DNA from: a virus
DNA: 50,977 nucleotides
IMG/VR virus record: IMGVR_UViG_3300024974_000003
Coordinates: 1-50,977 of that record
Reading direction: 5' to 3' (one strand)
A program made the translations under genes and the position numbers. The notes under the pieces were generated by a model that worked only from the letters and a program-made list of their open reading frames with translations, made no database searches and was not told the origin of the DNA. This document shows positions 4,389 to 50,977 of this stretch, one piece after another; positions within the stretch are counted from its first letter, which is position 1; the number at the start of each line of letters is the position of its first letter.

Positions 4389-4399
4389 AAAGAAAACAG

Positions 4400-5710: not shown

Positions 5711-5715
5711 ATAAA

Positions 5716-5751
5716 TGAATTACCCTCTTTTTAATCAAAGAGGGTAATTCA
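5716..5751 (+). terminator. 15-bp perfect hairpin after the capsid gene
   Basis: Fifteen bases (5716-5730) are perfectly complementary to 5737-5751, with a six-base loop. The stem contains ACCCTCTTT/AAAGAGGGT. No uridine run follows the right arm, so it may be a partial terminator or an mRNA-stabilising hairpin that lets the capsid message exceed downstream ones. Confidence 0.65.
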
Positions 5752-5797
5752 ATATTTAAACGAAAATTTAAAACTTATTAATTTAAAACTAAATATC

Positions 5798-6034: not shown

Positions 6035-6037
6035 ACT

Positions 6038-7257: not shown

Positions 7258-7284
7258 ATTATTAATTAAAAAAAAATAGAAATT

Positions 7285-8196: not shown

Positions 8197-8219
8197 AACA
8201 ATCGATTCAATATCATAAA

Positions 8220-8248
8220 AAGGTGGTGCGATAAACGCCGCCTTTTTT
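8220..8248 (+). terminator. Intrinsic terminator after tail tube gene
   Basis: AAGGTGGTG (8220-8228) pairs with CGCCGCCTT (8236-8244), allowing two G-U pairs, and six T residues follow (8243-8248). Confidence 0.8.
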
Positions 8249-8265
8249 GTATAAAAATTATTTCT

Positions 8266-8706
8266 ATGAACTTTTTTGATTTTGCCGAAACATTAAAAAA
8301 CTATTCGACTTCTCGATTTGTTTATGATTTACAAACAGAACTCGAAAAGAACAATGATGCAATTCAACTTCAAAAAGACCAATGGGCGAAAGGTAAAGAT
8401 GCTCACGGAATTATTTTAGGGCTTTATTCAATGGGAACAGAAGCAATAAACCCAAACAAAAAAGCAGGAACTCCTTTCACATTGTTTGATACTGGAGATT
8501 TTTACGAGCAAACCCATTTATTTGGCAACATAAAAGATAATGATTTGCTTTTCAATTTTGATAGTTCCGGAACTAACACGGCGGCACTTATTGCAAGATT
8601 AGGAGAAAGAATATTTGGATTACAAGATCAAAGCATTGATAAATTCACAACGATAGCGCAAGACACCGCTATTGATTTACTAAACAAAAACTTAAAACTA
8701 AAATAA
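8266..8706 (+). CDS. Putative virion morphogenesis / neck protein
   Basis: A 146-residue protein beginning MNFFDFAETLKNYSTSRFVY, with a TPFTLFDTGDFYEQT segment and a later GERIFGLQDQSIDKFTTIA stretch. The DTGDFYEQ and IFGL patterns recall phage virion morphogenesis or HK97-gp10-type completion proteins. It lies between the tail tube and tape measure genes. No enzymatic motif is seen; assignment is tentative. Confidence 0.45.
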   Translation: MNFFDFAETLKNYSTSRFVYDLQTELEKNNDAIQLQKDQWAKGKDAHGIILGLYSMGTEAINPNKKAGTPFTLFDTGDFYEQTHLFGNIKDNDLLFNFDSSGTNTAALIARLGERIFGLQDQSIDKFTTIAQDTAIDLLNKNLKLK

Positions 8707-8708
8707 TT

Positions 8709-9020
8709 ATGGGATGCAATTGTAAAAAAACGCAAGGCTTCAATGATAAATTAAAGATTGCACAGTCAGAAACAAAACGCACCGGAGAAGTTCACGTAGT
8801 TTTCATTATGGAAGCCGTAAAACAAATTTTTGTATGCAAAGAAGATGATTTGACCGATGATATGGGTGTGTATTGCTATTTCCTTCCAGATGGCACGGAA
8901 GTAGCCTACACATCAGCAAAAACAGCCGAGATTATCGCCGTAATAAAAGATAAAAAAAGAGCTAAAACAATTGAAGTTATTGAGCCAATTATCGAAACTC
9001 CAACCGAAAAAACAGCCTAA
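8709..9020 (+). CDS. Hypothetical tail-region protein, cysteine-rich N-terminus
   Basis: A 103-residue protein starting MGCNCKK, with beta strands in the middle (EVHVVFIMEAVKQIFVC) and a basic, glutamate-rich tail. It lacks a signal peptide, so the cysteines are not a lipobox. Position just before another small gene and the tape measure is where tail assembly chaperones usually lie. Its stop TAA is followed at once by the next ATG in the same frame, so no frameshift is needed. Confidence 0.55.
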   Translation: MGCNCKKTQGFNDKLKIAQSETKRTGEVHVVFIMEAVKQIFVCKEDDLTDDMGVYCYFLPDGTEVAYTSAKTAEIIAVIKDKKRAKTIEVIEPIIETPTEKTA

Positions 9021-9590
9021 ATGTTTACATTTTTCAAGAAAAAACCAGTCCAAAAAGCGATTCTTTACACAAAGTGTAACGAATTGCCCTGCCATAACTT
9101 CAATGAAGTAGCCACAAACAACGATTTTAATTACCTGAAAGTAAACAAAAATGATGTTGCAACTGATATTGAATTAGAAACGGCTTGGTTGGGGATTCTT
9201 GACGAATATTTCAGAATATCAAAAAACGTTCAAGGATTAAATATTCTGAAAAAGAAAACAAGTTTGTTATTCCTTGAAAATAAATTGCAAGTTTTTGAAG
9301 CGATGCAAATTTGCCTTTCCAAAAATATCAATGTCGATATTGAAATGGCAATGTACAAAACCAATAAGGACATTCTGAAAGTTCATATCGGAATGATAAA
9401 AAACGACATCGCCCGAATTTTAAAAACATTGCCATCCGAAGAAAACACCAAAGACGAAAACGAATTCGACAGATCACTCGCTGTTTTATCTCAAGCAGGT
9501 TTTAAAATTGACCGCTTCAAAACCGTAGTTTCAGAATGGGTACAAATGTTAAGAATTTTTGAACAACAACAATCTAAAAAAGAAAACTAA
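9021..9590 (+). CDS. Putative tail assembly chaperone-like protein
   Basis: A 189-residue, mainly helical protein immediately upstream of the tape measure gene, overlapping it by one base. It begins with a lysine-rich MFTFFKKKPVQKAILYTKC and has long charged helices (ILKKKTSLLFLENKLQVFEAMQICL). Genes in this position often encode chaperones that keep the tape measure soluble, but I see no recognisable family, so the role is inference from position. Confidence 0.4.
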   Translation: MFTFFKKKPVQKAILYTKCNELPCHNFNEVATNNDFNYLKVNKNDVATDIELETAWLGILDEYFRISKNVQGLNILKKKTSLLFLENKLQVFEAMQICLSKNINVDIEMAMYKTNKDILKVHIGMIKNDIARILKTLPSEENTKDENEFDRSLAVLSQAGFKIDRFKTVVSEWVQMLRIFEQQQSKKEN

Positions 9591-12500
9591 TGGCACAAGA
9601 ATTCAATATACCAGGATTAAAAGATGCAATAGCTGAAATGACTAAACTAAATGAAACGGTTTTATTACTTTCTAAAAATGTTCTCGATGTCGCTATAGAT
9701 GCAGATAAAGCAATGAAACCTTTTAAAGATGTTTCTGGCATAAAAGGATTTACAGAAGCGCAGCAAAAATCTAACGAGACAAGAAAAACAACAAAAGAAG
9801 TAGTAGATAAATTGGCTCAAGCAGAAGAAAAATTGAAATATTCACAATCTGAAGTAGCTAAACAAATTGCCGCAGTTAACGTACAAACCCAACAGCAAAA
9901 TCAAAACAACAAAGCATCTGCTCAAATAATTGATTTGAATAGCGAAGCTTTGAAAAAAGAAGTGACTTCTATTGCCGAAGCGAGAGCTCAAAATACATTG
10001 CTTACGCAAGCTCGAAACAACGTTAATCTAACCACTGTTGAAGGACAATTACAGTTGACAACTTTCAATGCTAAATTAGATGAAAATAACGCATTCATTA
10101 AAGCAAATGGAGATGCTGCATTAAAGCAAAAAATGCAAATCGGGGATTATGCTGGAGGCGTAAAATCTGCTATGGAACAAACTGGATTGTTTTCTGGTAA
10201 AATAGGTCAATTAAGTAATACCGCTATAGGATTTGTGCAAAGCGGGGCTCAAGCAGTTACAAAAATAAAAGATGTTAGCGATGCAGTTGTTAATGGTGCT
10301 AAAAATGTAGGTACTTATGTTGCCGCTAAAGTAAAAATGATTACTACTGAAAAAGCTGGAGTTATTGCCATTGAAGAAAGCACTATCGCAACCGAAGCAA
10401 ACGCAATCGCTACAGCAGAATCGAGAGTTCAAGTAGCTGGATTTACAATGGCTGAAAAAGCGCAAACAATAGCGACAGAAGCAAGCGCAGTTGCAACACA
10501 AGGAATGTCGGTTGCTCAAGTTGGATTAGCAGCAACTACAGATGTAGCAGCTGGCGCAGAAGTAGCAGCTACAGCAACAACTTGGGGATTAAATACCGCT
10601 TTAGGAATTTTATTGTTTCCAATCACAGCAGTAGTATTAGCTTTCGGAGTATTAGTATATATTTTCAAGGATTTTGCACCGGTAATCAATCCAATAAAAG
10701 ATGCGTTTGCGGCATTAATGGCAGTTTTTGAAGTGTTGAAATCTTCTGTTTTTGCTTTGGTTACGGGAACTAAATCATTAGGAGAAGTATTTTCATCACT
10801 AGGAGCTGAAACAAGTAAGGCGGCGGATGAGGCTTATAAATTAGCGGCAGCAAATAGAGAAATCATAGTAAGTCAAAGAGCTTTAGAACTTTCAAGTGCA
10901 AAAGCACAAGCGGAAATCACAAAACTAATTACTCAATCAAAAAATAGAACTCTTTCAGAAGAAGAAAGAATGAAAATGTTAGCAAAAGCTATCGAAATGG
11001 AAAAAGAAAATGTAGCAGCAAAATTAACTTTAAATAATAAAGAAATAGCGGCAGCTAGAATGAAACTTGCCGATGGAAAAGAAATTTCAGAGGAGGATAT
11101 GAAACAATTAGCCAAAGGAAATGCAAATTATGCACAAGAAATAAAAAAGAAATACAATTTAGATCAAGATGAAATAGACCATTTGAGAAAAATACAAGTT
11201 GAAAGATATGGACTTATTGAGGCATCTTCCAGAGTTGTTGAAAAAGCAAATAACTTTAGTGATAAATTGGCAGAAAACAAACAAAATAAAGAAGATAAAG
11301 CAAGAGAGAAAAAAGAAAAAGACGATGAAAAAGCACAACAAACAGCAGAAAAAAACGCTGAAAGAGAATTAAACCGCCAAAAGAAAACAGCTGAAGAAGC
11401 GATCAAGACGATGAAAATCACGCTTGACAATGAGATTGCAGCCTATGACCAATCGGCAAAATTAGATTCAGAAAACATTGCACACGTTCAGGCTATTGAA
11501 AATCTAAAAAAAGGAATTGCGCAGGCTGAATTGAATACGAATTTAATAGGATTGAAAGTTGATGAGGATATTTTAAATAAAAAAATAGCTCAAAATAAAA
11601 AGTTGTCTTTAGACGAGCTTAGTTATGTTTCAATTAAGAATGCAACAGCTCAAGAACTCATAAAAATTGAAAATGAAAAAACAAAAGCACTTGAAAAAAT
11701 CCAAAAAGATGGTGTTAAATTTGAAATTGAACTGTATGATCTAAATAACAAAACCTTAATTAAGGAAGGAAAAACATTGACTGATTTATTGGTTAATGAA
11801 GAAAAAAAACGCATTCAACAATCATTAGACATTCATAAAAAAGGAATGCGTGATGAATTGAATATCGACAAATCCCTTTCGGACGAGAAGTTAAAACAAA
11901 TGTCAAAAACAAATGGAGCTTTAACGGCAAACCAGTTGAAATATTTACAAGGTATTCAAAAACTGGAAGAATCCAAAGATAAAGACATTAAGAAACTCGA
12001 TGCTGATTTGCTAAATACCAAAGTAAAAAACATCAATACTGAGGTAAAAAACGAGCAAAACAAAAATAAACTTCTCAACAAAAGTGCATTAGCACAAGCA
12101 AAAGATGCTTTCAAATTAGAAGATAAAAGGCTTAAGGATTTAAGAAAATTATATAAAGATGATGCTGAAAAAATAAAAGAAATCGATGATGAAATTGCAG
12201 CTAACAAACAGCTAATTGATAAAACAGTAAGCGACAATAAAAAGAAATTACTCGAAGATGGATTAAACAATGTTATTGCCGTTTTCGGACAAGAAAGCGC
12301 CGTTGGAAAAGCGGCTGCAATTGCTCAAGTAACAATGGATACTTACAAATCTGCAACTTCTGCTTTTGCCGGAATGGTAGAAGCTTTTCCTGGTCCTTGG
12401 GGAATTGCTGCTGGAGTTGCAGCAGCTGCTCTTTCAGTTGGAATGGGATTGTCTAATGTTGCAAAAATAGTAGGTATAAAAATGTTTGCTGAAGGTACTA

Positions 12501-12859
12501 ATGATGCACCCTACACAGGAAAAGCGATTGTTGATGAAGATGGAGCAGAAATTCACACGGATGCTTCCGGCAATATTAAAAGTTTCGGTTCAGATTCTGG
12601 CGCACATTTGACAGATATTGTCAAAGGTGATAAGATTATTCCTGCTGATATTTCGGCAATTATTCGTCAAACAATGTTTTCCAGTTATGGAATGAGTGCG
12701 CAACAACAAACAATTGATTACGGTAAAATAGGCGAACAGTTCGGAAAACACGCTTCTAAAATTGTGAATGCAGTAAATAACAACGGAAAAAATCAACTGT
12801 CAGTTATGATTCAAAAAGGAATATCTGATCGTGTAATATTCAAAGGCAAAAGCGTATAA
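9590..12859 (+). CDS. Tail tape measure protein
   Basis: The 1089-residue protein is the longest gene in the window. The N-terminal 300 residues are coiled coil rich in A, Q, K and E. A hydrophobic segment is near 330-357 (WGLNTALGILLFPITAVVLA). Long charged coiled coils run to about 900, followed by a glycine/alanine-rich hydrophobic patch at 935-960. The C-terminal region ends with a GAHLTDIVKGDKIIPAD-type segment usual in tape measures. Its length sets tail length; about 1.5 angstrom per residue would give roughly 160 nm, implying a long non-contractile tail. No sheath gene is seen. Confidence 0.92.
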   Translation: MAQEFNIPGLKDAIAEMTKLNETVLLLSKNVLDVAIDADKAMKPFKDVSGIKGFTEAQQKSNETRKTTKEVVDKLAQAEEKLKYSQSEVAKQIAAVNVQTQQQNQNNKASAQIIDLNSEALKKEVTSIAEARAQNTLLTQARNNVNLTTVEGQLQLTTFNAKLDENNAFIKANGDAALKQKMQIGDYAGGVKSAMEQTGLFSGKIGQLSNTAIGFVQSGAQAVTKIKDVSDAVVNGAKNVGTYVAAKVKMITTEKAGVIAIEESTIATEANAIATAESRVQVAGFTMAEKAQTIATEASAVATQGMSVAQVGLAATTDVAAGAEVAATATTWGLNTALGILLFPITAVVLAFGVLVYIFKDFAPVINPIKDAFAALMAVFEVLKSSVFALVTGTKSLGEVFSSLGAETSKAADEAYKLAAANREIIVSQRALELSSAKAQAEITKLITQSKNRTLSEEERMKMLAKAIEMEKENVAAKLTLNNKEIAAARMKLADGKEISEEDMKQLAKGNANYAQEIKKKYNLDQDEIDHLRKIQVERYGLIEASSRVVEKANNFSDKLAENKQNKEDKAREKKEKDDEKAQQTAEKNAERELNRQKKTAEEAIKTMKITLDNEIAAYDQSAKLDSENIAHVQAIENLKKGIAQAELNTNLIGLKVDEDILNKKIAQNKKLSLDELSYVSIKNATAQELIKIENEKTKALEKIQKDGVKFEIELYDLNNKTLIKEGKTLTDLLVNEEKKRIQQSLDIHKKGMRDELNIDKSLSDEKLKQMSKTNGALTANQLKYLQGIQKLEESKDKDIKKLDADLLNTKVKNINTEVKNEQNKNKLLNKSALAQAKDAFKLEDKRLKDLRKLYKDDAEKIKEIDDEIAANKQLIDKTVSDNKKKLLEDGLNNVIAVFGQESAVGKAAAIAQVTMDTYKSATSAFAGMVEAFPGPWGIAAGVAAAALSVGMGLSNVAKIVGIKMFAEGTNDAPYTGKAIVDEDGAEIHTDASGNIKSFGSDSGAHLTDIVKGDKIIPADISAIIRQTMFSSYGMSAQQQTIDYGKIGEQFGKHASKIVNAVNNNGKNQLSVMIQKGISDRVIFKGKSV

Positions 12860-12861
12860 TT

Positions 12862-15552
12862 ATGAACAACTTCCTAGACACCAATTCCTTTGAACATTTT
12901 CTAAATTTTATCAGTTTAGGAAATACGGAACTTTATCAAATCACAGAGCCGTCAGGTTTTGATGCTGCAAATTTTGTAGTAAAACAAAACGACTCCAGAT
13001 ACAGCCGTGATATAATTTATGGTAATGACACAATCAATTTATCTTTTTACGATGCCAATGTAGAACTATCGAGCATCGAACAAATGCAAGACACGGATGG
13101 ACGCACTTCTTTTTATTTAGATTACGGTTTAAAATGGATTTTAGAAACTTACAACCGTTTTGGTTTCGAGGGAAAAATCGAATACATTCTGAAAAAAGAA
13201 GGTGTTTTGTTTACAACAGGTTTGCTCGATATGGCAAACCCAGATACTGATGGGAATACTTTTTTTGCGTGCTCCGTAATTCAAAGCAATCAGGTTGCAA
13301 ATTACAAGAAACACGAAGAAACGATTATTGATTTATTCAGTACCAAAAATGCAAAAAATGAAACCATAACACCCGCTGAAACTTTCAAATTCTTAAGAAA
13401 GTCAGTACCAATTTTAAAAACAAGTACATTAAATTGTCCTAATGTTTTTGATGCAGCTTTAAGTTCCACTGGTTCCGGTAGCAACAGCCATAATTATTTT
13501 TACTGTAATAATGCAGCAACAAAAACAGTCGAGGAAATAAACAATACTTTGGCTTTTCCAAATCAAGTAGTGCAAAATGGTGACGGTAACGATTCTATTG
13601 CTGAAAACTTCGCAATTATCCAGGCGCGATCTATTTTAACGGATATTAAAATAGACATTAAGGATTTAATTGTCAATCAAAGAACGCACGTTGCCGATGG
13701 TGGGAATGGTTATGCCGATAATAAATTTATTGTTCGATGGGGAACCGACATTAACGTACCAATGGGTGAGCAAATCCTTTTCGCTTTTTACCAAGAAGAA
13801 GGTCATACGTATCAAAACCCGATTCACGATTATACAGTAAATATTCCATACTTGCCAATTGATGCAAAAATATGGGTTTATTTATGGGTTAAAACTCGCC
13901 AAAGCGCAGTAATCGGAATATTTAGAGCATATACTCAAATTTCACAATACAATCTAAACGTGACCGCCAATACCTTTGCTTTAAATACAGTTGTAAAAGG
14001 GGTTCGATACATTGATATGATGAAACAGTGTTCGAAATTCATTAACAATTTACCAATTGTGGCTCCACGTTTTGATGTTGGCGGTGAGTTTTACGACCAA
14101 GTTTGCTATAATCGAGCGTTGATAAGCCAAGATTTGACACGGCCATTCACTACGACATTCAATAATGTTATGGGAAGCACTCAAGAAGTAAATGGAGATT
14201 TTGAAATAATGCACGATAAAATATTTCAAGGTCAATATCCTGATTTTTATGAGAACACCGAAATTGGTGTTTTCCAAATAAAACCAAGCGAAGGATTTAA
14301 AGAAAACTGGAACGACAAATATAAAATCAACGTTTTTAGTTTTGGATATAAAACGTATGAGCAAAACAGATTAACCGCAAATACAACGGGAGACGTTCAT
14401 ACAGAAAGTGAATGGATAGTGCCTAATTTGATGGTTGAAAATAAAAAAGAGGTTGGAATCGATTTGATACGTTCTGCATTTTCCCAACAAGTCGCCGTCG
14501 ATTTAGAAATTAAAACCCCGCAAACCTCCGATGAGAATGATGACAAAGTTTATATTGTCGATATTGTTCCACTTCCAGAAGGTACTTTCAATGAGTTTTC
14601 TTCCGAATTACAAATGCAACTATCGGATGGAAAACTAACTATTTTAAACAAGAAATCGAGTGCGACAATCGAAGAATCTGTTATCAATTGGAATGTTTTA
14701 GGTTTTAATGTTGGTGATAATTTTCAAATAGTATCAGGTTCAAACGCTGGAAATTATACCGTTATTTCAATTACTCAAACAATGCTTGTTTTATCGCCGG
14801 TGGGTTTTGTTCCCACATTTACGGGTGATGCTTACATAACAATGAAATTCTATTACACGGATGTACTTTGGCAAACCCGAGCTGATGAAGATTTTATAGT
14901 TTCAGGAAATACAAATTCTAAAAACTATCCTAATTTGAAATATACCATTCGTAGAAATATGAAACATTGGGAATCGTATTTGCGCACAGCTTGCAGTTTC
15001 AATTTACTCAAATCTATTCGAAATTCTTATTTCAAAAATGATCCTGCTTTAGAAACTATATTTCAAAGCGGAATAAATTACATTGAAAAAGCAGATATTC
15101 CCGTTTCAAGTTTGCAAACTCCATTAGTAACACCGAAAACATTTGATATTGTCGTAGTGGCAAGTTTCAATCAGGTTATAACACTATTAGAAACTCTAAA
15201 AATAATCCGAGGATTTATAAGAAGTTACAATATCGAAGGAAATATTATAAAAGGATTCATCAAAGATTTAGATTACACCTGGTCAACTGCTGAATTGAAA
15301 TTGACTTTGGAAGAAAAATACGAAAGTGAAACCATAATTTTAACTTATTCGGGTGGGATTTTAACTGTAAATGATGCAATCTATACTCTTTCTGGAGCTT
15401 CTGAATGGTGGAAAATCACAGGCGAATACTTCACGGCTTTTGATATAAATAACGTTCCACTTTGCAACCGACACCGATTTGACAAAGTAAGTTTGAACGG
15501 AATGATTTATGGTTCAGAATACGAATTATTGGAAGCATTGGAAAATTTATAA
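12862..15552 (+). CDS. Large tail tip / baseplate protein
   Basis: An 896-residue protein directly after the tape measure, three bases downstream. The N-terminal part resembles distal tail or tail-hub proteins in order (FLDTNSFEHFLNFISLG, then a beta-rich segment with TETYNRFGFEGKIEYIL-like strands). The middle has a long beta region; near residues 620-660 is a GFNVGDNFQIVSGSNAGNY stretch typical of beta-barrel carbohydrate or hub modules. No peptidase motif is evident. The position tape measure-tail tip is standard for siphoviruses. Confidence 0.65.
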   Translation: MNNFLDTNSFEHFLNFISLGNTELYQITEPSGFDAANFVVKQNDSRYSRDIIYGNDTINLSFYDANVELSSIEQMQDTDGRTSFYLDYGLKWILETYNRFGFEGKIEYILKKEGVLFTTGLLDMANPDTDGNTFFACSVIQSNQVANYKKHEETIIDLFSTKNAKNETITPAETFKFLRKSVPILKTSTLNCPNVFDAALSSTGSGSNSHNYFYCNNAATKTVEEINNTLAFPNQVVQNGDGNDSIAENFAIIQARSILTDIKIDIKDLIVNQRTHVADGGNGYADNKFIVRWGTDINVPMGEQILFAFYQEEGHTYQNPIHDYTVNIPYLPIDAKIWVYLWVKTRQSAVIGIFRAYTQISQYNLNVTANTFALNTVVKGVRYIDMMKQCSKFINNLPIVAPRFDVGGEFYDQVCYNRALISQDLTRPFTTTFNNVMGSTQEVNGDFEIMHDKIFQGQYPDFYENTEIGVFQIKPSEGFKENWNDKYKINVFSFGYKTYEQNRLTANTTGDVHTESEWIVPNLMVENKKEVGIDLIRSAFSQQVAVDLEIKTPQTSDENDDKVYIVDIVPLPEGTFNEFSSELQMQLSDGKLTILNKKSSATIEESVINWNVLGFNVGDNFQIVSGSNAGNYTVISITQTMLVLSPVGFVPTFTGDAYITMKFYYTDVLWQTRADEDFIVSGNTNSKNYPNLKYTIRRNMKHWESYLRTACSFNLLKSIRNSYFKNDPALETIFQSGINYIEKADIPVSSLQTPLVTPKTFDIVVVASFNQVITLLETLKIIRGFIRSYNIEGNIIKGFIKDLDYTWSTAELKLTLEEKYESETIILTYSGGILTVNDAIYTLSGASEWWKITGEYFTAFDINNVPLCNRHRFDKVSLNGMIYGSEYELLEALENL

Positions 15553-27826: not shown

Positions 27827-29032
27827 TTATTGGTTTATAACTTGAATGTTAATCTTCTTTAAAGCTTCATTTTTTCGCTTCTCCCTACCAACTAAATAAA
27901 CAGTTTCAGTAACATTTGTGGTATGAGATGCCATTCCTTTGGAAAAATTAAAAGCAGCATCTGAAGCTTTGTCTAGTTCGTCTAAGAACAAGTGTTTCAA
28001 AGCATAGAAATCAGCAGTCACATTGTATTTTTTCTTCACCCACCGTCTCCATCTTATGCTAATCTGACACGGTTGTATTGGAACTAATGAAGGTTTCAAC
28101 CCTCTTGTAAACAAGAAGTCATCATCATCGGTACACTCTTGGACAATTTCTGTCCAAAAAGATAAAACGTTTGGCAAAATTACTTTAATTACTTCCTTGC
28201 TAACGCTACCTTTCAATATCGTGACTTTATATTCCTGCTTGGACAGATTAACGTCTTTTTTCTGAACACGGAATAATTCAGCGGTTCTAGCTCCGGAGTG
28301 AAAAAAAATCATACCATACCTATAAAAAGTATAATTATCATTTTTCAAAATTTTAAATATTTTATTTAGTTCATCCAGTTCTAAAGTTTCACGGATTTTT
28401 TTAACTGTTTTTTTCTTTTTGATATCGCGAATTGGATTGTGAAAAACTATTCTTTTTTCCACTAAGTCAGAAAGAACAATCGACAAATGAGTGAGGAACT
28501 TATTATACTCATTATTAGTCAAACCTAAAGGATCAAGTAAATCACGGATGTGGCCACTATGAATTTCACAAATAGGAAATTCTAATTTCAAGTTTATTGC
28601 AGATTCCTCAACCTTGGCCACAATTCGCCTAAGTTCCTTTATCACACCTTCAGAAACCGATAACAAAGGATAAGCAATTTTTAGAGCTTCAGTAAAATTG
28701 AGTTTTGGGTGTAAAGTTCCTGGAACTGGTTTAAGTTCAGGAATCATGTACTTTTTAGTGATTGGGTTGTAACCCTTGTCTTCAAAAAGTTTGGGGATTT
28801 CCTTTAGCCAAGTTTCGATAACGGCTTTTCTGTCCTCCAGTGATCGGAACCGGTTTAGTTTTTTTCTGAATAGAAAGCCTTTAGGATACTTCTCTTTAAA
28901 TTTTGGGTCATAAAACTTGCATTCCACACGCCAGTCAAGTTTCAAAGATTTTTGAGAAGTCAATGTTTTCCAGTTCTCCGGATGTACCCATAGATCAGAG
29001 TACGCACAATCAAATAATAAATTTTTTGCCAT
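27827..29032 (-). CDS. int: Tyrosine recombinase / phage integrase
   Basis: A 401-residue protein with an N-terminal SAM-like core-binding domain and a C-terminal catalytic domain. Visible residues are R249 (FHSGARTAEL), K274 (ILKGS), H370 and Y379 (ASHTTNVTETVYLV). The canonical H-x-x-R box appears as Y343-A-L-K346, so two usual residues are replaced; I believe this occurs in other Bacteroidetes integrases. It catalyses attP-attB recombination. The attP lies just upstream of its start. The gene is transcribed leftwards with the repressor group. Confidence 0.9.
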   Translation of the reverse strand: MAKNLLFDCAYSDLWVHPENWKTLTSQKSLKLDWRVECKFYDPKFKEKYPKGFLFRKKLNRFRSLEDRKAVIETWLKEIPKLFEDKGYNPITKKYMIPELKPVPGTLHPKLNFTEALKIAYPLLSVSEGVIKELRRIVAKVEESAINLKLEFPICEIHSGHIRDLLDPLGLTNNEYNKFLTHLSIVLSDLVEKRIVFHNPIRDIKKKKTVKKIRETLELDELNKIFKILKNDNYTFYRYGMIFFHSGARTAELFRVQKKDVNLSKQEYKVTILKGSVSKEVIKVILPNVLSFWTEIVQECTDDDDFLFTRGLKPSLVPIQPCQISIRWRRWVKKKYNVTADFYALKHLFLDELDKASDAAFNFSKGMASHTTNVTETVYLVGREKRKNEALKKINIQVINQ

Positions 29033-29975: not shown

Positions 29976-30401
29976 TTAACTTGTGCCGTTTTGTTTTTTT
30001 TGATGCCCTAATTCAAGGTCATATATTTTATTTTCCAGAAATTCTATTTTGTCTTTGTAAAATACAATTTGCTCATCTTTAAATTGTATTTCTTTCTTCA
30101 ACTCTAAATTTTCCTTTTTCAATCCGTAATCTTCTGTAGGCTCTGAAATTATAGATAAGACATTTGGTTGCTTATAATTTAAATCTTCAAAACCGTCTAA
30201 ATTGACATCAAACTTATCTATAATAGTTTGTAAAAACTTAGATGAAGGTTTGATTTTTCCATTTACATAAGGACTTATCGTCCCTTCTGAATAACCTGTT
30301 TTTCTTGATAAATCAGCAATAGGAAATTCCAAATTCAACTTTTCAAGTAAAAAGGTGAGTTTTTTAAAATTCATATCTTTTTGATTATCAGAAGCATTCA
30401 T
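29976..30401 (-). CDS. CI-like repressor, XRE HTH with coiled coil
   Basis: A 141-residue protein. Residues about 26-55 form a helix-turn-helix (DLSRKTGYSEGTISPYVNG), followed by a linker and a strong coiled coil (LKKENLELKKEIQFKDEQIV) that likely dimerises it. It lacks the usual peptidase domain, so it is not cleaved by RecA. It is divergent to the rightward early operon and probably represses it by binding the direct repeats in between. Confidence 0.75.
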   Translation of the reverse strand: MNASDNQKDMNFKKLTFLLEKLNLEFPIADLSRKTGYSEGTISPYVNGKIKPSSKFLQTIIDKFDVNLDGFEDLNYKQPNVLSIISEPTEDYGLKKENLELKKEIQFKDEQIVFYKDKIEFLENKIYDLELGHQKKQNGTS

Positions 30402-37482: not shown

Positions 37483-38373
37483 ATGGATGAAATCGGAAAA
37501 ATAATAGAATCGATGCCAATAAAAAAAGGCATTATTACCAGACGAGAATATGAATGGCTTAAATCATTTGAAAAATTAGAGCCTCACGAATTGGAAAAAA
37601 TAAAGGAATTCGAAGGAAATTTAAAAGTTTCTGAATCCAGAAAAGAGATAAAAAAAGAAGTAATTGAACGTACAAAAGGATTAGTTCCTGATAAAAAAAT
37701 TATTTGGACAGGATTTTTACAAGCTTTTTTACAATCTCAAAAAAAGGAATTCGTACAAAACCCTGATACATTATCAAATTTAGAACCTGTGTTGAAATAT
37801 TTTGCAAAAGATGAAACTTTCTTCAATTGTAAAAATTTAGTTAAAAATTTCAACGGTAAAGAACTAGAAAATTCTTTTGATAAAGGACTTTTAATCATTG
37901 GAGACTATGGAAATGGAAAAACAACAATAATGCATTGTTTTGAAATTCTATTTAAAAAGAACTTCGAAATAGCAATGACCGAAAATTGGGATACAATGAA
38001 ACAATGGAATGAATTACGTTTCAAAAGCTCAAAATCACATGATGTTGTTACGGAATTCGAAACCATTACCAATCCAGATGCCAAGGATAATTTCTATAAA
38101 AAGTACAATAGTTTTAGATATTATTTTGATGATGTTAAAAAAGAAAAGACAGCATCAAATTATGGAAAAACAGAAATAATCAGGGAGATAATTGAGAAGC
38201 GTTACGATAAAAAATCCAAAACATACATCACTTGCAATTACAAAGAGGGGTATTCCAATAATCTTCAAGAAGCTTTAGTAGAATTCGGAGACAGGTACGG
38301 AGGTCACATTTACGACAGGCTATTCGAGATGTTCAATATCATTGAATTCAAAGGTAAAAGCTTTAGAAAGTGA
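37483..38373 (+). CDS. DnaC-like helicase loader ATPase
   Basis: A 296-residue AAA+ protein. Walker A GDYGNGKTT is at 140-148, Walker B YYFDDV at 213-218, with a later R-rich region. The N-terminal 130 residues are charged and helical and would contact the helicase or initiator. It probably loads the host DnaB helicase at the phage origin. Follows the initiator by two bases. Confidence 0.85.
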   Translation: MDEIGKIIESMPIKKGIITRREYEWLKSFEKLEPHELEKIKEFEGNLKVSESRKEIKKEVIERTKGLVPDKKIIWTGFLQAFLQSQKKEFVQNPDTLSNLEPVLKYFAKDETFFNCKNLVKNFNGKELENSFDKGLLIIGDYGNGKTTIMHCFEILFKKNFEIAMTENWDTMKQWNELRFKSSKSHDVVTEFETITNPDAKDNFYKKYNSFRYYFDDVKKEKTASNYGKTEIIREIIEKRYDKKSKTYITCNYKEGYSNNLQEALVEFGDRYGGHIYDRLFEMFNIIEFKGKSFRK

Positions 38374-38609
38374 AAGCAAAAATCCTTGAGTTAGTAGAAA
38401 AAAAGCATCATTCAAGTGGTGGGAAGTGTGGAACTTACTTTGTTGAGTTTTTAATCCACTTGAAAGTATCAGTTGATGAATTTGAAAAGGTCGCATCAGA
38501 AATGTACAACAATGAGCAAATTGACATCAGGATGGGAATAAATGGATTTATGATAATGCAATTTGTTCCAATTAAAAAAAGCAAGAATAATAATTTAAAA
38601 ACTAAATAA
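38370..38609 (+). CDS. Small hypothetical protein, GTG start
   Basis: A 79-residue protein beginning with GTG at 38370 (overlapping the previous stop). It starts MKAKILELVEKKHHSSGGKC and looks like a small winged-helix domain with basic end. It lies between the helicase loader and the DGR targets. Confidence 0.5.
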   Translation: MKAKILELVEKKHHSSGGKCGTYFVEFLIHLKVSVDEFEKVASEMYNNEQIDIRMGINGFMIMQFVPIKKSKNNNLKTK

Positions 38610-38611
38610 AA

Positions 38612-39088
38612 ATGAGTGAAACATTAACCGCTGAAAAAAGCAAAGTAATTACAGCCTATAACAAGGCAAAAGGAGGCAGAAAAGTAATGTTAGAAAACCT
38701 TTTCGGAATTAAAACCTTTCAGCCTGAAATCAAAGAGAGAATCAAATCTTTCGATGATGTTTTGAGAGAAAACGGAATCGTCAAACTTGATTTTGAAAAA
38801 TCTTGTCAAGGCTTAACCACGGATGAAGTGGCTTACAAACAAGTCAAAGAAATAGTAAAAGCCTTTAATGAAGGTTGGACTCCAGACTGGACAAATTCAA
38901 ATGAGGGTAAATATTATCCTTGGTTCAAAATGGGTTCTCCTTCGGGTGGCGGTTTTTCGTACGACGACTGCGGTCTCTGGAGCACGGTTTCGTATGTCGG
39001 CTCTCGCCTTTGCTTCAAAAATTCAGATTTAGCGAAACACGCTGCTAATCTATTCCTTGACATTTACAAAGATTTACAAACCGCTTAA
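38612..39088 (+). CDS. DGR target protein 1 (C-terminal variable C-type-lectin-like domain)
   Basis: A 158-residue protein without signal peptide or membrane segment. The first 85 residues are helical; the rest contains YYPWFKMGSPSGGGFSY, then a variable stretch, a GSRLCF motif and the final helix LAKHAANLFLDIYKDLQ. This is the fold pattern of DGR target proteins in Bacteroidetes. The variable repeat is at 38934-39013. Templated changes replace Asn/Asp/Tyr/Ser codons around the SY...STV region. Its binding partner is unknown. Confidence 0.85.
   Translation: MSETLTAEKSKVITAYNKAKGGRKVMLENLFGIKTFQPEIKERIKSFDDVLRENGIVKLDFEKSCQGLTTDEVAYKQVKEIVKAFNEGWTPDWTNSNEGKYYPWFKMGSPSGGGFSYDDCGLWSTVSYVGSRLCFKNSDLAKHAANLFLDIYKDLQTA
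38934..39013 (+). repeat. DGR variable repeat VR1
   Basis: Aligned without gaps to the template at 39501-39580. By my count, 14 of the 20 template adenines differ here, and only one non-adenine base differs (near the right end). It covers the C-terminal part of target 1 and ends at the GSRLCF-encoding block, the likely initiation of homing side. Confidence 0.9.
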
Positions 39089-39098
39089 AAACCATATT

Positions 39099-39470
39099 AT
39101 GTACACAGAAATTAAAACATTTGAAGACGCTTGCAAGGCTATTAATGTAGAGCCTACTATTATTCCAGATTTTTCATTGTTTCCTGAATCAGACCAACAG
39201 GCAATGATAGCACACGCCAAATTAGTAATTATCGCCAAAGCCATAAACGGTGACTGGGTTCCAGACTGGACAAATGGCGAATGGGATAAGTACTATCCTT
39301 GGTTCAAAATGGGTTCTCCTTCGGGTGGCGGTTTTTCGTACTGCGGCTGCGATTACCGGGGCACGGTTTCGGCTGTCGGCTCTCGCCTTTGCTTCGAAAC
39401 TAGAGAAAAGGCTATATATGCAGGTAATCAATTTGAAGACCTGTACAAAGTCTATTTTGTAAAAGCATAA
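39099..39470 (+). CDS. DGR target protein 2
   Basis: Start placed at ATG 39099 because an earlier frame start at 39057 would overlap target 1. It encodes 123 residues, with an N-terminal helical region (TFEDACKAINVEPTIIPDF) and a C-terminal YYPWFKMGSPSGGGFSY block, a variable segment, GSRLCF and a final helix (KAIYAGNQFEDLYKVYF). It matches target 1 in the C-terminal half, indicating duplication or a shared cassette. No signal peptide is present, so it acts inside the cell or in the virion. Confidence 0.85.
   Translation: MYTEIKTFEDACKAINVEPTIIPDFSLFPESDQQAMIAHAKLVIIAKAINGDWVPDWTNGEWDKYYPWFKMGSPSGGGFSYCGCDYRGTVSAVGSRLCFETREKAIYAGNQFEDLYKVYFVKA
39313..39392 (+). repeat. DGR variable repeat VR2
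   Basis: Aligned without gaps to the template. By my count, 16 of 20 template adenines are changed; two non-adenine differences occur, one shared with VR1 near the right end and a T-to-C earlier. Independent changes relative to VR1 show that each target is diversified separately. Confidence 0.9.
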
Positions 39471-39500
39471 TAAATGAGGTTGTGTGGTGTCGTTGCTGTA

Positions 39501-39580
39501 GTTCTCCTTCAGGTGGCAGTTTTTCGTACAACGACTACGATAACTGGAACACGAATTCGAATGTCAGCTCTCACCTGAGC
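39501..39580 (+). repeat. DGR template repeat (TR)
   Basis: An 80-bp copy of the variable region in the noncoding gap between target 2 and the reverse transcriptase. Adenines dominate the first and second codon positions (AAC and AAT codons), the usual template design. Right of it, CTTGCC and GGCAA arms near 39606-39620 form a small hairpin that may be part of the template RNA. The stretch 39471-39683 holds no other gene. Confidence 0.9.
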
Positions 39581-39683
39581 TAAAAAATTTTAAGCACCAC
39601 AGACCTTGCCAACACGGCAAAAAATTACAAAATTAATAGGTTCGCTAGTAGAGCAATCGAAAGCGAACCAATCAAAGCAAAGT

Positions 39684-40646
39684 ATGAAACGATTCAAAAA
39701 TATATACCAACAAATTATTTCACCAGCAAACCTAATTATTGCGGAAGCAAAAGCACGCAAAGGCAAAGCCAAACAATATGGTGTGAAGGTATTTGATAAA
39801 AATCCACAGGGAAACCTTGTGGAGCTTCATAAGATGTTGCTTGAAAAAAATTACCAAACATCAGAATACACCACTTTCAAAATCTTTGAACCAAAAGAAA
39901 GGCTAGTTTTTAGATTGCCATACTTTCCTGATCGCATTACCCATCACGCTGTTATGAATGTTCTGGAGCCAATATTTACCAAATTATTCACAGCTGATAC
40001 ATACAGCTGCATCAAAGGAAGAGGAATTCACGGAGCTGCCAATAATTTAAAAAAAGCATTGAAGGACCAGGAGAACACAAAGTACTGTTTGAAATTAGAT
40101 ATTGTCAAGTTCTATCCAAATGTAGATCATGAGGTTCTAAAGCAACTATTGAGAAAAAAGTTTAAAGACCAGGATTTACTTTGGTTGTTGGATGAAATCA
40201 TTGATAGCGCTGATGGATTGCCAATAGGAAATTATTTAAGCCAATATTTTGCAAACTATTACCTGACCTATTTTGACCACTGGATAAAAGAAAACAAAGA
40301 AGTAAAATATTACTTCAGGTATGCTGATGATATTATTATTCTATCGAGCAACAAACCACATCTTCACGAGCTGTTGGCAGAAATAAAAACCTATTTGAAT
40401 GATAATCTAAAGCTTCAGGTAAAAGGGAATTATCAAGTATTCCCAGTTGAAGCACGTGGAATTGATTTCGTTGGATATGTATTCTACCATACGCACACGC
40501 TTATGCGAAAATCAATTAAAAAAAGATTTGCAAGGGCAATGTCAAAAACAAAAAACAAAGCCACGATAGCCGCTTATTTCGGATGGGCAAAACATTGCAA
40601 TTCAAAACACCTATTAAAAAAATTAATACCAAATGAACGCATTTAA
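39684..40646 (+). CDS. DGR reverse transcriptase
   Basis: A 320-residue protein with reverse transcriptase motifs: LKLDIVKFYPN (D139), the GLPIGNYLSQYFANYYL block at about 178-194 that carries the DGR signature IGxxxSQ, and RYADD at 212-216. The start is at ATG 39684; a TTG at 39606 gives a longer frame that runs into the template side and looks non-coding. It synthesises adenine-mutagenised cDNA from the template RNA. It lies 103 bases right of the template and overlaps the following gene. Confidence 0.95.
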   Translation: MKRFKNIYQQIISPANLIIAEAKARKGKAKQYGVKVFDKNPQGNLVELHKMLLEKNYQTSEYTTFKIFEPKERLVFRLPYFPDRITHHAVMNVLEPIFTKLFTADTYSCIKGRGIHGAANNLKKALKDQENTKYCLKLDIVKFYPNVDHEVLKQLLRKKFKDQDLLWLLDEIIDSADGLPIGNYLSQYFANYYLTYFDHWIKENKEVKYYFRYADDIIILSSNKPHLHELLAEIKTYLNDNLKLQVKGNYQVFPVEARGIDFVGYVFYHTHTLMRKSIKKRFARAMSKTKNKATIAAYFGWAKHCNSKHLLKKLIPNERI

Positions 40647-40929
40647 AGATTTGGGAATAAAAGCCCAACCCAACTCATTTGTTGGTGACAAATTGAAATT
40701 AGATAAAATTTTAAACCAAGAAATAAAAGTACTTGAATTCAAAATTGACAAATCAATTAAAAAAGAAAACTCAGATTATTTGACATTACAAATTGAAAAG
40801 AATGAAACAAAATATGTTGTTTTTACTGGCTCAAAAATACTGATGCAAATGATAAGTGAGGTGCCTAAAGATAAATTTCCCTTTACAACAACAATAGTAA
40901 AAAGCAATGATTATCCTGAATTTACATAA
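40633..40929 (+). CDS. Hypothetical protein coupled to the DGR RT
   Basis: A 98-residue protein beginning MNAFKDLGIKAQPNSFVGDK, then strands with FKIDKSIKKEN and a KYVVFTGSKILMQMISEVP segment and a FPFTTTIVKSNDY end; it resembles an OB-fold-like small domain. It overlaps the reverse transcriptase gene by 14 bases, so it is coupled. No Avd-type accessory protein is found elsewhere, so it is a candidate accessory factor; this is inference. It might instead be a replication protein. Confidence 0.6.
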   Translation: MNAFKDLGIKAQPNSFVGDKLKLDKILNQEIKVLEFKIDKSIKKENSDYLTLQIEKNETKYVVFTGSKILMQMISEVPKDKFPFTTTIVKSNDYPEFT

Positions 40930-40959
40930 CATACAATAAACAATCAAATTTTAGAAACA

Positions 40960-42609
40960 ATGAGTAAAACAACAGAAACAAAAATTGAAAATTTGAAGTT
41001 GGAAAATATCTTCCCTTCAAAAACGAATCCCAGAAAATCCTTTGACGAAAAAGGATTGCAGGAACTAGCCGAAAGCATTAAAGAGTATGGATTGCTTCAG
41101 CCAATACTCGTGAGACCAATCTTGGACGATTTCGATAAGGACTTGAAACCAAATTATGAAATCATTTACGGTGAAAGAAGGTACCGAGCTTCAGTACTTG
41201 CCAAGATGACAACCATCAAGGCTCAAATTGAGTATATGGATGATGACAAAGCTTTTGAAATTCAAGTATTAGAAAACCTCCAGCGTGAGGATGTATCTCC
41301 ACTCGATGAAGCCAGAGCGTTTCATTCTTTGATGAAAAAAGAATCTTTAGACTGGTTAGCTTCCAAAATTAATAAATCTAAAAAGTACGTCCTGGATCGT
41401 GTGAAGCTTTTAGACTTATGTGATTTCGCAATGGAAACTTTAGAGGCTGGAGTACTACCTATTGGTCACGCTATGTTGCTTTCGAAAATCGATAAAGTGG
41501 TTCAGAGAAATATTATGAATTCATTGTCTTTGATTACAAATATCAATATGTCGAAAGATAAAAACGACTACACGCACAGCTATTGCACTAAAACTATGAG
41601 TTCACTTAAAGACTCAATAGCGGGGTTAATGCTTTCGTTTGACAAGGCAAACTTTGACCTCAACGATGAAAATCTTTTACCTAAAGCGGGAAGTTGTCAA
41701 GTTTGCCCAAAGAGAACCATTAACGAAAACTTGCTTTTTGGAGACATCACGCACAAAGATATGTGTACCGATACCCTTTGCTTTAATTCTAAAATCAAAA
41801 CACAACTCGAGGTTAATCTTGCAGGAGCAAAAGAAAAATACGGGAAGATTTTAATGGCTGAAAAAAATCCGTACAGCGGAAGTGAGCAGGTTAGAGTAGG
41901 CGGAAAAGATGTGTATTTCACTGATAAAAAAACAGAAAGCAATTCTGTTCCTGCAATCATTAACAAAGCCGATAACTGGAGTCAAAAGTACATTGGTAAA
42001 GTAGTTTGGATTGAACCCAAAAAAGAGGTTGAAGATATAGAACAAAAGCCAAAAGGTTTAGATTCGTGGGAAATCAGACAGAACAAAATTACGGATGAGG
42101 TTGTAATTCCAAGATACAAAGAAGTGTTTGATAAATTACTTTCTGATATTCCTATCACAATTATCGAAAGCGAAAACTGCTTGAACATTGTAGATGATTT
42201 TTTGATTGAAAATCTAGTGGCGGGTTCATTCAATAAAATAATCATCGTTTGCAATCTACTTGGAATCAAAACCGATGTGGAGTTAGATGCTCAAATACTT
42301 CGAGAATACAAAGACTCATTATCTCGAAATGAACAATACAATTTACAATTTGAGCTTTCAAAGAAATTGGTTAATAGTCACAGCATAGAAATGATTTGCA
42401 ACATTCTTTTGCTGGATGACATCGTAGAAAAAGACATTGAAATGGACGAAGAGATTGAAGCTTGGGAGATTTCAATCAAAAGATACTATGAGACAATCGG
42501 ATTGCTTGAAAAACCTATCGAAGAAATCGAAACGGATGTAGAAGAAATTCCAGTCGAACAACCTTCAATTACTGAAAGGGTAAAAGAAAGAGCCAAAAAG
42601 CTAAAATAG
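40960..42609 (+). CDS. ParB-like protein
   Basis: A 549-residue protein. The ParB/Sulfiredoxin N-terminal domain has NPRKSF at 23-28, GERRYRA at 71-77 and ENLQREDVSPLDEA at 105-118, followed by a KorB-type helix-turn-helix region around 125-150 (WLASKINKSKKYVLDRVKLL). A CxxC pair (CQVCP) and acidic C-terminal helices follow. No ParA is seen, so a regulatory or host-adaptive role is as likely as partition. Confidence 0.75.
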   Translation: MSKTTETKIENLKLENIFPSKTNPRKSFDEKGLQELAESIKEYGLLQPILVRPILDDFDKDLKPNYEIIYGERRYRASVLAKMTTIKAQIEYMDDDKAFEIQVLENLQREDVSPLDEARAFHSLMKKESLDWLASKINKSKKYVLDRVKLLDLCDFAMETLEAGVLPIGHAMLLSKIDKVVQRNIMNSLSLITNINMSKDKNDYTHSYCTKTMSSLKDSIAGLMLSFDKANFDLNDENLLPKAGSCQVCPKRTINENLLFGDITHKDMCTDTLCFNSKIKTQLEVNLAGAKEKYGKILMAEKNPYSGSEQVRVGGKDVYFTDKKTESNSVPAIINKADNWSQKYIGKVVWIEPKKEVEDIEQKPKGLDSWEIRQNKITDEVVIPRYKEVFDKLLSDIPITIIESENCLNIVDDFLIENLVAGSFNKIIIVCNLLGIKTDVELDAQILREYKDSLSRNEQYNLQFELSKKLVNSHSIEMICNILLLDDIVEKDIEMDEEIEAWEISIKRYYETIGLLEKPIEEIETDVEEIPVEQPSITERVKERAKKLK

Positions 42610-43976: not shown

Positions 43977-44218
43977 AATACAATATATCAGAATTACAAC
44001 AAGCAAATATTGATTTCAGAGAAGTTTTTGGCACTGGTTTAGGACCATATTTAGAAAGTCAAATTACAGCAATGACAGGACAATTAGTATTGAATATTAT
44101 TGATTTTCATAAATATTTAGAAAAAAAACATTCCGAAAATCATCAATCTTTTAACAAATTATTATCCGATAACTACGGAGAAAAAGGAATACAATTAATT
44201 AAAAAATTAACATTATGA
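43973..44218 (+). CDS. Hypothetical protein
   Basis: An 81-residue protein starting MKYNISELQQANIDFREVFG, helical. Its ATGA start overlaps the previous stop and its stop overlaps the next start. Function unknown. Confidence 0.5.
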   Translation: MKYNISELQQANIDFREVFGTGLGPYLESQITAMTGQLVLNIIDFHKYLEKKHSENHQSFNKLLSDNYGEKGIQLIKKLTL

Positions 44219-45102
44219 CATACGGATATTTAAGGGTTTCCTCTGATAGGCAAGATGTTGAAAATCAAAAAACAGGAGTTGTAGAAAAATGCACATCTTT
44301 AGGTTTGGTAATTGACAAGTGGATAAGCGATGAGGGTATTTCAGGTACAAAAGAGCCAGAAAAAAGAGCTTTAGGAGGGCTTTTAAAAAAAATGAAAAAA
44401 GGAGATGTTATAATTTCTTCTGAATTATCGAGGTTGGGGCGTAATTTGTTTATGATTATGCGAATTTTAGAACACTGTATGAAGTCTGAAGTGAAAGTTT
44501 ATACAGTAAAAGATGGTTATGAACTTGGCGATAATATTACGTCTAAAGTTTTGGCTTTTGCTTTTGGTTTAGCAGCCGAAATTGAGCGTGATATGATTTC
44601 AAAAAGAACTAGGGAAGCATTGCAGAAGAGAAAAGCAGATGGAGTTATTCTAGGACGTCCGGTTGGTCAACGAAACAATATAAAAAAATGTGATAAGCTT
44701 AAAGATGACATCATAAAATACAATCAAATGGGTTTGTCGATGTCAAGAATTGGAAAATTGTTAAAATGTCATCGACTAACAATTTCAAACTTTATGAAAG
44801 AAAATAATATTAAACCTTTTCACAAAGGAGCAAATTTAGACAAGGTAGATGCATTGATGGAAAATTACAAGCCATCGATCAGGCTGTTTTTACAACAAGG
44901 ATTAAGACATACCGAAATTGCTATTAGATTAAGCGATGATTATCAAACTAAAATTTCTTCATCAAGGCTTGAAAAATACATCTCAAACAATGAAGATTTA
45001 CACAAAGAATTGAGAATTGCACAGGATGAAAAAAGAATGAAAGCTAATGGTTCGTTGAATAGAAGTAAAGATAAAGCTCTTCTTATGGCAGGTGCTGTTT
45101 AA
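44215..45102 (+). CDS. Serine recombinase / invertase (resolvase family)
   Basis: A 295-residue protein with YLRVSSDRQD carrying the catalytic serine (S9), then SELSRLGRNLF and the AAEIERDMISKRTREAL helix of the catalytic domain, and a C-terminal helix-turn-helix region and further helices. It could invert or resolve DNA. It is the second recombinase in this genome, besides the tyrosine integrase. No inverted target sites are evident near it. Confidence 0.85.
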   Translation: MTYGYLRVSSDRQDVENQKTGVVEKCTSLGLVIDKWISDEGISGTKEPEKRALGGLLKKMKKGDVIISSELSRLGRNLFMIMRILEHCMKSEVKVYTVKDGYELGDNITSKVLAFAFGLAAEIERDMISKRTREALQKRKADGVILGRPVGQRNNIKKCDKLKDDIIKYNQMGLSMSRIGKLLKCHRLTISNFMKENNIKPFHKGANLDKVDALMENYKPSIRLFLQQGLRHTEIAIRLSDDYQTKISSSRLEKYISNNEDLHKELRIAQDEKRMKANGSLNRSKDKALLMAGAV

Positions 45103-46399: not shown

Positions 46400-47881
46400 A
46401 TGACTTCACAAACTATCGCTTCCAGAATCATCAAAACAGAGTTAATAAATTGGCGAGAGCTTCAATTCATCCAACAGGAAAACTTCAAAGAATGGGTAAA
46501 CAATGGCGCTGAAAAGTTAGTTGAGTCAATATTAAAATACCAATTCATTGCTCCGTTTATGGTTTGGCATTCTGAAGGCGTGAACTATTGCCTTGATGGT
46601 CGCCATAGGTTTTTAGATTTGGAAAAAGTATCATTGTCCGGTAGTTCAGTTCCGGAGTTTCTTCCAGCCACTTTTGTTGATTGTGCCAATATGAAAGAAG
46701 CAGCCGAATTGGTTTTGGTTTATTCAAGTAACTATGCAAAAATTACCCAGCAAGGACTTCTTGAATTTGTCAATAATTTTGATTTGGACTTTCCGGATAT
46801 GCAAGCGATGTTAAATATTGCAGATTTTGACGAAATCGCTTTCCAGGGATTGATGAATAAAAACGATTCAGAAAACAATCTGATCATTCCATCATCATTG
46901 AAAGATAGTTTTATATTTCCTCCGTTTTCAATTTTAGACACACGCTCTGGAGTATGGCAGGAACGAAAACGTAAATGGCTATCTCTTGGTTTCAACTCAC
47001 AAGAAACCCGAGAAGATGTTGAGCTTATTGCAAAAAGTGGCCAATCAACAGCAATCTATGAACTTCGAAATAAAATGCGTGAAAACTTAGGACGTGACCC
47101 CGAGTGGGATGAAATCCTTGATTATGCAAAGAAAAAAGGAATGCACGTTTACGAAGGTGCCAGTATTTTTGATCCGGTGTTATGTGAGCTTCTGTACAAG
47201 TGGTTCTGTACTAACGGAGGTTCTGTACTTGACCCATTTGCCGGTGGTTCTGTTCGTGGTATCGTTGCCGGAGTTCTTGGTTATCCTTATTCCGGAATTG
47301 ATTTGCGCCTGGACCAAGTAGAAGCCAACAGAAAACAATCCGCTTTGTTGAGCCTTGAAAATGTAGAATGGTTTGATGGCGATAGCAATGAGGTTCTGGA
47401 CACTTATAAACCTCACGATGGATTTGATTTTCTTATGAGCTGCCCTCCTTATGCCGACTTAGAAAAATATAGCGATGATCCTAAAGACTTATCAAATATG
47501 GATTATGAGGATTTCAAAACTGTTTATTTCAGCATCATTAAAAAGTCTGTTGAGCAATTGAAAGAAGATCGTTTCGCTTGCTTTGTCGTTGGTGATGTTC
47601 GTGACAAAAAAGGATTTTATTACAACTTTGTGGGCGATACTGTGCGAGCTTTTGAAGAAGCTGGAGCAAAGTACTATAATGAAATTATATTGGTAAACGT
47701 GGTAGGTTCTTTGGCCATTCGTGTTCGTCGCCAGTTTAACGGTGGAAGAAAAGTTGGCAAGATGCACCAAAATGTGTTGGTGTTTTACAAAGGTGACCCA
47801 AAGAAAATCAAAGAAAACTATCCTGAATTAAACTTGGGAGATGACTTGGAAGCAATCAGTAATGAATTAACCGAAATTTAA
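46400..47881 (+). CDS. ParB-domain DNA methyltransferase
   Basis: A 493-residue fusion. The N-terminal part has a ParB-like nuclease fold (CLDGRHRFL at 64-72, then helices). The C-terminal part is a DNA methyltransferase: VLDPFAGGSVRG at 276-287 binds S-adenosylmethionine and SCPPY at 347-351 is the catalytic motif. The SCPPY form fits amino-methylation of cytosine or adenine. It probably protects phage DNA from host restriction. Confidence 0.8.
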   Translation: MTSQTIASRIIKTELINWRELQFIQQENFKEWVNNGAEKLVESILKYQFIAPFMVWHSEGVNYCLDGRHRFLDLEKVSLSGSSVPEFLPATFVDCANMKEAAELVLVYSSNYAKITQQGLLEFVNNFDLDFPDMQAMLNIADFDEIAFQGLMNKNDSENNLIIPSSLKDSFIFPPFSILDTRSGVWQERKRKWLSLGFNSQETREDVELIAKSGQSTAIYELRNKMRENLGRDPEWDEILDYAKKKGMHVYEGASIFDPVLCELLYKWFCTNGGSVLDPFAGGSVRGIVAGVLGYPYSGIDLRLDQVEANRKQSALLSLENVEWFDGDSNEVLDTYKPHDGFDFLMSCPPYADLEKYSDDPKDLSNMDYEDFKTVYFSIIKKSVEQLKEDRFACFVVGDVRDKKGFYYNFVGDTVRAFEEAGAKYYNEIILVNVVGSLAIRVRRQFNGGRKVGKMHQNVLVFYKGDPKKIKENYPELNLGDDLEAISNELTEI

Positions 47882-50738: not shown

Positions 50739-50977
50739 TACATTACCCACATAACCCAGAAGAAGATATGAGACCAATACCACCAGCACGACCAAGCTAC
50801 AGAATCAAAGAATTTAGAGGAGTATTTACTATTGAAAAATTAGTAAAAGTAAAAATTAAATCAAAAACATTTTGGGATTGGCTTTATTATGGACGTTACT
50901 ATTTTGAGTCAGATTATCATATTCTTACAGATAGAGGTAATTTATTTAAACCATTTGTAGAAGCTCATCCAATAACA
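50735..50977 (+). CDS. Hypothetical protein, N-terminal part (crosses circular junction)
   Basis: Begins with ATGA overlap at 50735 (MIHYPHNPEEDMRPIPPARP) and continues through the 127-bp repeat into the frame at 2-196, giving 103 residues. The proline-rich start is followed by an aromatic segment. No family is recognised. Confidence 0.8.
   Translation, partial: MIHYPHNPEEDMRPIPPARPSYRIKEFRGVFTIEKLVKVKIKSKTFWDWLYYGRYYFESDYHILTDRGNLFKPFVEAHPIT
50851..50977. repeat. Terminal direct repeat, right copy
   Basis: Identical to positions 1-127. Together they show that the assembled sequence closes as a circle, with a unit length of about 50,850 bp. Confidence 0.95.

Follow-up and report, generated by a model that had tools for sequence, protein, structure and literature searches.

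A two-target diversity-generating retroelement in a temperate Bacteroidota phage, set in an apparently mobile cassette with a linked accessory gene

The sequence analysed was IMG/VR virus record IMGVR_UViG_3300024974_000003, positions 1 to 50,977, and the window below means this whole stretch of 50,977 nt. Since a 127-bp repeat stands at both ends, the record was taken as a complete genome. Two target genes (T1 and T2), each with a variable repeat (VR), are followed by a template repeat (TR), a covarying RNA, a reverse transcriptase (RT) gene and the gene of a 98-aa accessory protein. The features of the locus and its setting are as follows.

1 to 127, plus strand: direct repeat of 127 bp, with the same sequence at 50851 to 50977
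27827 to 29032, minus strand: integrase, temperate lifestyle (phrog_1, E = 2e-18)
29976 to 30401: repressor, temperate lifestyle
37483 to 38373, plus strand: DnaC-like helicase loader, just upstream of the cassette (phrog_50, E = 6.2e-13)
38612 to 39088, plus strand: target gene T1, an ORF of 158 aa (phrog_11581, function unknown) with its VR near the 3' end
38934 to 39013, plus strand: VR1, residues ~108-134 of T1
39099 to 39470, plus strand: target gene T2, an ORF of 123 aa (phrog_11581), like T1 minus the N-terminal ~45 aa
39313 to 39392, plus strand: VR2, within T2
39501 to 39580, plus strand: TR, placed by alignment with the VRs; its target frame reads SPSGGSFSYNDYDNWNTNSNVSSHLS, with adenines mostly in AAY, TAC and GAY codons
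39602 to 39684, plus strand: structured RNA of the TR-RT spacer, with hairpins at about 39607-39619 and 39639-39669
39684 to 40646, plus strand: RT of the diversity-generating retroelement (DGR), 320 aa, with an ATG start
40633 to 40929, plus strand: accessory protein, 98 aa, overlapping the RT stop; predicted OB-like fold
40960 to 42609, plus strand: ParB-like protein, just downstream of the cassette (ParB_N, E = 8.4e-25)

The integrase and repressor genes, together with relatives that sit in Bacteroidota genomes, agree with the original prediction of a temperate Bacteroidetes phage. Further along the window, 44215-45102 holds a gene resembling serine recombinases and DNA invertases (phrog_125, E = 1.1e-43), and 46400-47881 encodes a protein of DNA methyltransferase type (phrog_498) that also weakly matches a ParB-like nuclease.

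The original prediction had placed one 80-bp template and two variable repeats at the positions listed, and these were borne out by a gap-free alignment of TR, VR1 and VR2. Its adenine counts proved exact when substitutions were counted formally by template base. VR1 was changed at 14 of the 20 template adenines and at 1 of the 60 other positions (Fisher p = 3.5e-10), and VR2 at 16 of 20 and 2 of 60 (p = 2.4e-11). The differences thus carry the adenine-specific mutagenesis signature that had been proposed, and a uniform spread over the template bases was not seen. Between the two VRs 10 sites differ, 9 of them template adenines, and the non-adenine sites of the VRs are preserved at 97-98%. A search of both strands of the whole window found no further VR; the best other 70-nt match retains 27 of 52 non-adenine positions, against 51-52 in the VRs. 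The 3' ends, compared as IMH/IMH* candidates, read CTCTCACCTGAGC in TR and CTCTCGCCTTTGC in the VRs. Each VR lies toward the 3' end of an open gene, and ~24-26 codons remain before the stop. Since the TR adenines fall, in the target frame, in AAY, TAC, GAY, AGY, CAC, ACG and TCA codons, A-to-N changes in TR-derived codons cannot create a stop; by our own count from these codons, 15^5 x 4^8, or about 5e10, protein variants are possible per target.

The RT was expected to carry IGNYLSQ and YADD motifs, and both were found in 39684-40646 as LPIGNYLSQ and YFRYADD. The protein matched Pfam RVT_1 (E = 1.4e-19) and the PHROG reverse transcriptase family phrog_1423 (E = 1.6e-130). The closest solved structure was 8ub7_A (328 aa; E = 5.6e-44), which we take to be the BPP-1 DGR enzyme, and retron and group II RTs matched at about 1e-13 to 1e-14. 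Identity to the DGR RTs of crAss phages was 50-58%. The most probable start codon is the ATG at position 39684, also conserved in relatives, and not the in-frame upstream TTG at 39606. With both VRs, a DGR-type RT and the same order in relatives, the element is, by sequence and for practical purposes with certainty, a DGR with two targets, as had been predicted. Two targets are not unusual, since several VRs were found in 28.6% of DGRs in one survey (PMC6642488).

The spacer between TR and RT was matched by the Rfam RNAs RT-17 (RF03020; E = 6.4e-5) and RT-14 (RF02921; E = 8.9e-4), both of which span it but score slightly under their curated gathering thresholds. In an alignment of 50 sequences, compensatory changes were present in 10 of the 13 consensus pairs. 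Since the BPP-1 DGR also has a spacer RNA between TR and RT (PMC12875486), this RNA is likely, by analogy, to be an RT-binding and priming element.

Related RTs were found at 80 viral loci, mostly in the order T1, T2, TR and RT, and further relatives lie in genomes of Flavobacterium, Chryseobacterium, Pedobacter and other Bacteroidota. In these loci the VR of T1 lies about 560-660 nt and that of T2 about 188 nt upstream of TR, and a few loci have three VRs. When the related loci were pooled, 3,168 of 4,780 template adenines and 99 of 13,273 other positions were changed, in counts for which pair detection itself favours adenine-specific pairs. Over 109 distinct VRs of these loci the outcome at a template adenine was uneven (G 36%, A 33%, T 21%, C 10%). 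The VRs differ between close relatives, so that the identical VRs which would speak against a working DGR were not seen. One target (L061:401-481) has its VR 5.4 kb from its template. In Dyadobacter sp. CY261 (L115), four VRs of one template were observed; they include one at about 7.3 kb downstream and another some 4.8 kb upstream, with target-family ORFs at those places.

Among the 63 loci aligning with the phage over at least 1.5 kb at the nucleotide level, 58 match it inside 38588-40969 only, with the reservation that some loci are short and their flanks limited. Among the relatives are Mu-like phages that have a Mu-type portal, and loci adjoining terminase genes. Because most loci align only over the cassette, Mu-like relatives included, a cassette of ~2.3 kb appears to have moved as one unit between unrelated phages, with its targets and its accessory gene. 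The interval first proposed, 38612-40646, was therefore right in content and too short at its 3' limit; it should reach 40929, because the linked accessory gene is part of the unit. Four things were absent from the original prediction: the RNA between TR and RT, the dedicated protein encoded downstream, the placement of T1 and T2 among early genes, and the apparent transfer of the cassette as a whole.

T1 and T2 are homologous to each other by alignment, and homologues of T1 lie upstream of RT in most relatives. Neither has a family in Pfam, NCBIfam or PADLOC or a virion domain, and no signal-like N terminus was found in the target family. The T1 model (pLDDT 89.5) is of low confidence within the VR (60-82). 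In Foldseek searches it gave no significant match in the PDB, and its matches in BFVD were uncharacterised phage proteins alone. Their homologue in the Bacteroides phage Versailles has its VR, and part of the sequence before it, in common with a tail protein; we would argue from this that the VR segment may be lectin-like, and no new fold is claimed for the targets.

Annotation assigns the majority of phage DGR targets to tail proteins (PMC8144416), and the locus could accordingly be an ordinary tropism-switching DGR; T1 and T2 would then be virion-associated proteins for receptor binding, encoded by chance outside the structural module. The Versailles homologue, besides sharing its VR module with a tail protein, was itself annotated as a tail protein. 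A protein may be packaged even if its gene lies outside the structural module, and in some relatives a terminase gene follows soon after RT; both points count against a non-virion, early role. Against receptor binding stand the small size of the targets (123-158 aa), which carry no other virion-like domain, and their position between the DnaC-like and ParB-like genes, that is, in the replication module and not in the structural one. The complete genome holds no tail VR, and the same cassette occurs both in Mu-like and in integrase-type phages, whose structural genes are unrelated. Furthermore, in Versailles and in LoVEphage, also a Bacteroides phage, the tail target is a separate gene. In both, the template lies beside tail genes. 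One of its VRs is in the adjacent tail gene; the other is distant, in a homologue of T1 and T2 surrounded by genes of recombination and replication, and differs from the template at 14 of 22 adenines in Versailles and 19 of 26 in LoVEphage, and at no other position in either. We thus consider tropism switching by T1 and T2 rather unlikely. The early location favoured here is taken from the order of the genes; on our reading T1 and T2 would be expressed early, act inside the cell and bind a ligand.

The accessory gene was present in 72 of 81 loci by gene clustering, with its start inside the end of the RT gene, and it lay downstream of 134 of 166 RT ORFs from viral and genomic loci. Its linkage was tested by whole-genome scans; a single-sequence scan of viral contigs had given just two loci, and a pattern scan of these contigs was not feasible from so diverse an accessory alignment. 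About 1,200 Bacteroidota genomes gave 24 accessory matches, all 24 of them beside a DGR RT; a few of the genomes behind these matches had been reached through the RT search, and about 19 of the matches were independent of it. At the level of sequence the linkage thus appears exclusive. In one case, a prophage in a Bacteroidia MAG (L110:9773-11242), RT and accessory are fused in one ORF. Divergent homologues lie upstream of RT in gut Bacteroidales and Clostridia loci and in one alphaproteobacterial locus, and a homologue lies downstream of RT in the archaeal virus ANMV-1. Loci without the accessory were considered as a disproof of the linkage and set aside: several have a divergent copy upstream of RT, others are contig ends or distant RTs, and some remain without it.

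No family for the accessory was found in Pfam, NCBIfam or PADLOC, and no sequence match among solved chains, Avd included. Its AlphaFold model (pLDDT 91.7) has the strand and helix order b-b-b-a-b-b, as in an OB fold. Among its weak Foldseek matches are OB domains (RuvBL2, RPA, HIN-200), none of them significant (best E = 0.013), and from topology and these matches the protein is predicted to be OB-like. No Avd was found at the locus, where the gene of this beta-rich protein is the sole conserved linked one; we infer that it may bind RNA or ssDNA as a partner of the RT, replacing Avd.

Since OB-like folds are common among phage replication genes, and Avd, the classical accessory, is an unrelated helical protein, the 98-aa protein might be a hitch-hiking phage gene, such as an SSB-like replication protein, with no role in retrohoming. 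This is improbable, given that every one of the genome matches adjoins a DGR RT, that the gene accompanies the cassette between phages and overlaps the RT stop, that it has once been fused to RT, and that its homologues stay near RT in archaeal viruses and upstream of RT in gut lineages. The names reportedly given to DGR accessories by Wu et al. 2018 are Avd, HRDC, MSL and one 'conserved hypothetical'. PMC10053308 credits one DGR-associated protein without a Pfam entry to the same study. That protein may be the 98-aa accessory, and we therefore make no claim to its first discovery.

Comparison of two related prophages (L074 and L075) bears on activity. Over ~10.9 kb (base 2067 to 12981) they show 11 differences, all in VR1 at template-adenine sites, and their VR2, TR, RT and accessory sequences are identical, which is most simply explained if a single target was rewritten. 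This comparative evidence from relatives indicates transfer from TR to VR (retrohoming). Other close pairs differ at roughly 30-70% of adenine sites and at few if any other VR positions, with flanks differing by 6-30%. The DGR of this phage is apparently active; a decayed element whose repeats are relics of a rewriting that has ceased is highly improbable in view of the intact YADD of the RT, the two open target frames, the preserved non-adenine sites of the VRs and the recent VR1-only rewriting in relatives.

The reading we favour, and think probable, is that of a self-contained, horizontally exchanged DGR cassette, T1(VR1)-T2(VR2)-TR-structured RNA-RT-accessory, whose targets would be early non-virion binding proteins; its anatomy, adenine specificity, past single-target diversification (in a relative), exclusive RT-accessory linkage, transfer and early location are each documented by sequence. 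The TR RNA and the structured spacer RNA would be bound by the RT and, presumably, by the OB-like 98-aa protein in the place of Avd. Errors at adenines would arise as the RT copies TR, and VR1 or VR2, one target at a time, would be replaced by the resulting mutated cDNA. T1 and T2 would be made early, as non-virion binding proteins for conflict with the host or with other phages, and not as tail adhesins. We hold more tentatively, and with somewhat more doubt than trust, the full form of this proposal, a mobile phage hypermutation cassette that diversifies two intracellular early proteins (anti-defence or host-takeover binders) and whose RT uses an OB-fold accessory instead of Avd.

Parts of this arrangement are known from other DGRs. 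The Bordetella phage BPP-1 DGR shares adenine mutagenesis, TR and VR, a TR-RT spacer RNA and a related RT, but has helical Avd and a single tail-fibre target (mtd). One TR likewise serves two target genes in the tentaclin DGRs (PMC10743442) and the Bacuni phages (PMC8143477), where, however, proteins with C-type lectin folds are targeted, putatively for receptor binding or adhesion, and Bacuni has avd. Quimbyvirus has a non-structural second target, outside the structural module and near defence-related genes (PMC8008677), and LoVEphage, which looks related to Quimbyvirus, has an early-module VR gene homologous to T1 and T2; in both a tail-module gene is rewritten too, whereas here both targets are of early type and adjoin RT. 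In LoVEphage MW660583 (L203/L207) the RT matches come in three pieces, resembling the frame-shifted RT of Quimbyvirus (PMC8008677).

More unusual is that three features come together here: mobility of the cassette, confinement of its targets to the early module, and an accessory that is exclusive to the RT and unrelated to Avd. The usual account of phage DGRs is that they serve to switch surface receptors. Where a cassette is widespread and has only small replication-module targets, another use becomes testable, namely the rapid evolution of phage proteins acting inside the cell. Avd is not universal among DGRs, and lineage 3 is without it (PMC7290462); the 98-aa protein, with its exclusive tie to the RT, may be the cofactor that has been missing for such Avd-less DGRs, and it might serve in building smaller engineered systems for hypermutation.

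The crAssphage LMMB DGR (Wu lineage 3; PMC7290462) resembles the present one in its target-TR-RT order, the lack of avd and a related RT (about 50% identity), but it has one 486-aa tail-collar fibre target instead of two small early-module targets and a linked accessory. The crAss-like phage cr52_1 also has a target homologue; a TR/VR pair was not found in the stretches of it that were examined. Its tail protein (L206:5118-6356) reads through two in-frame stops under table 11, which suggests stop recoding.
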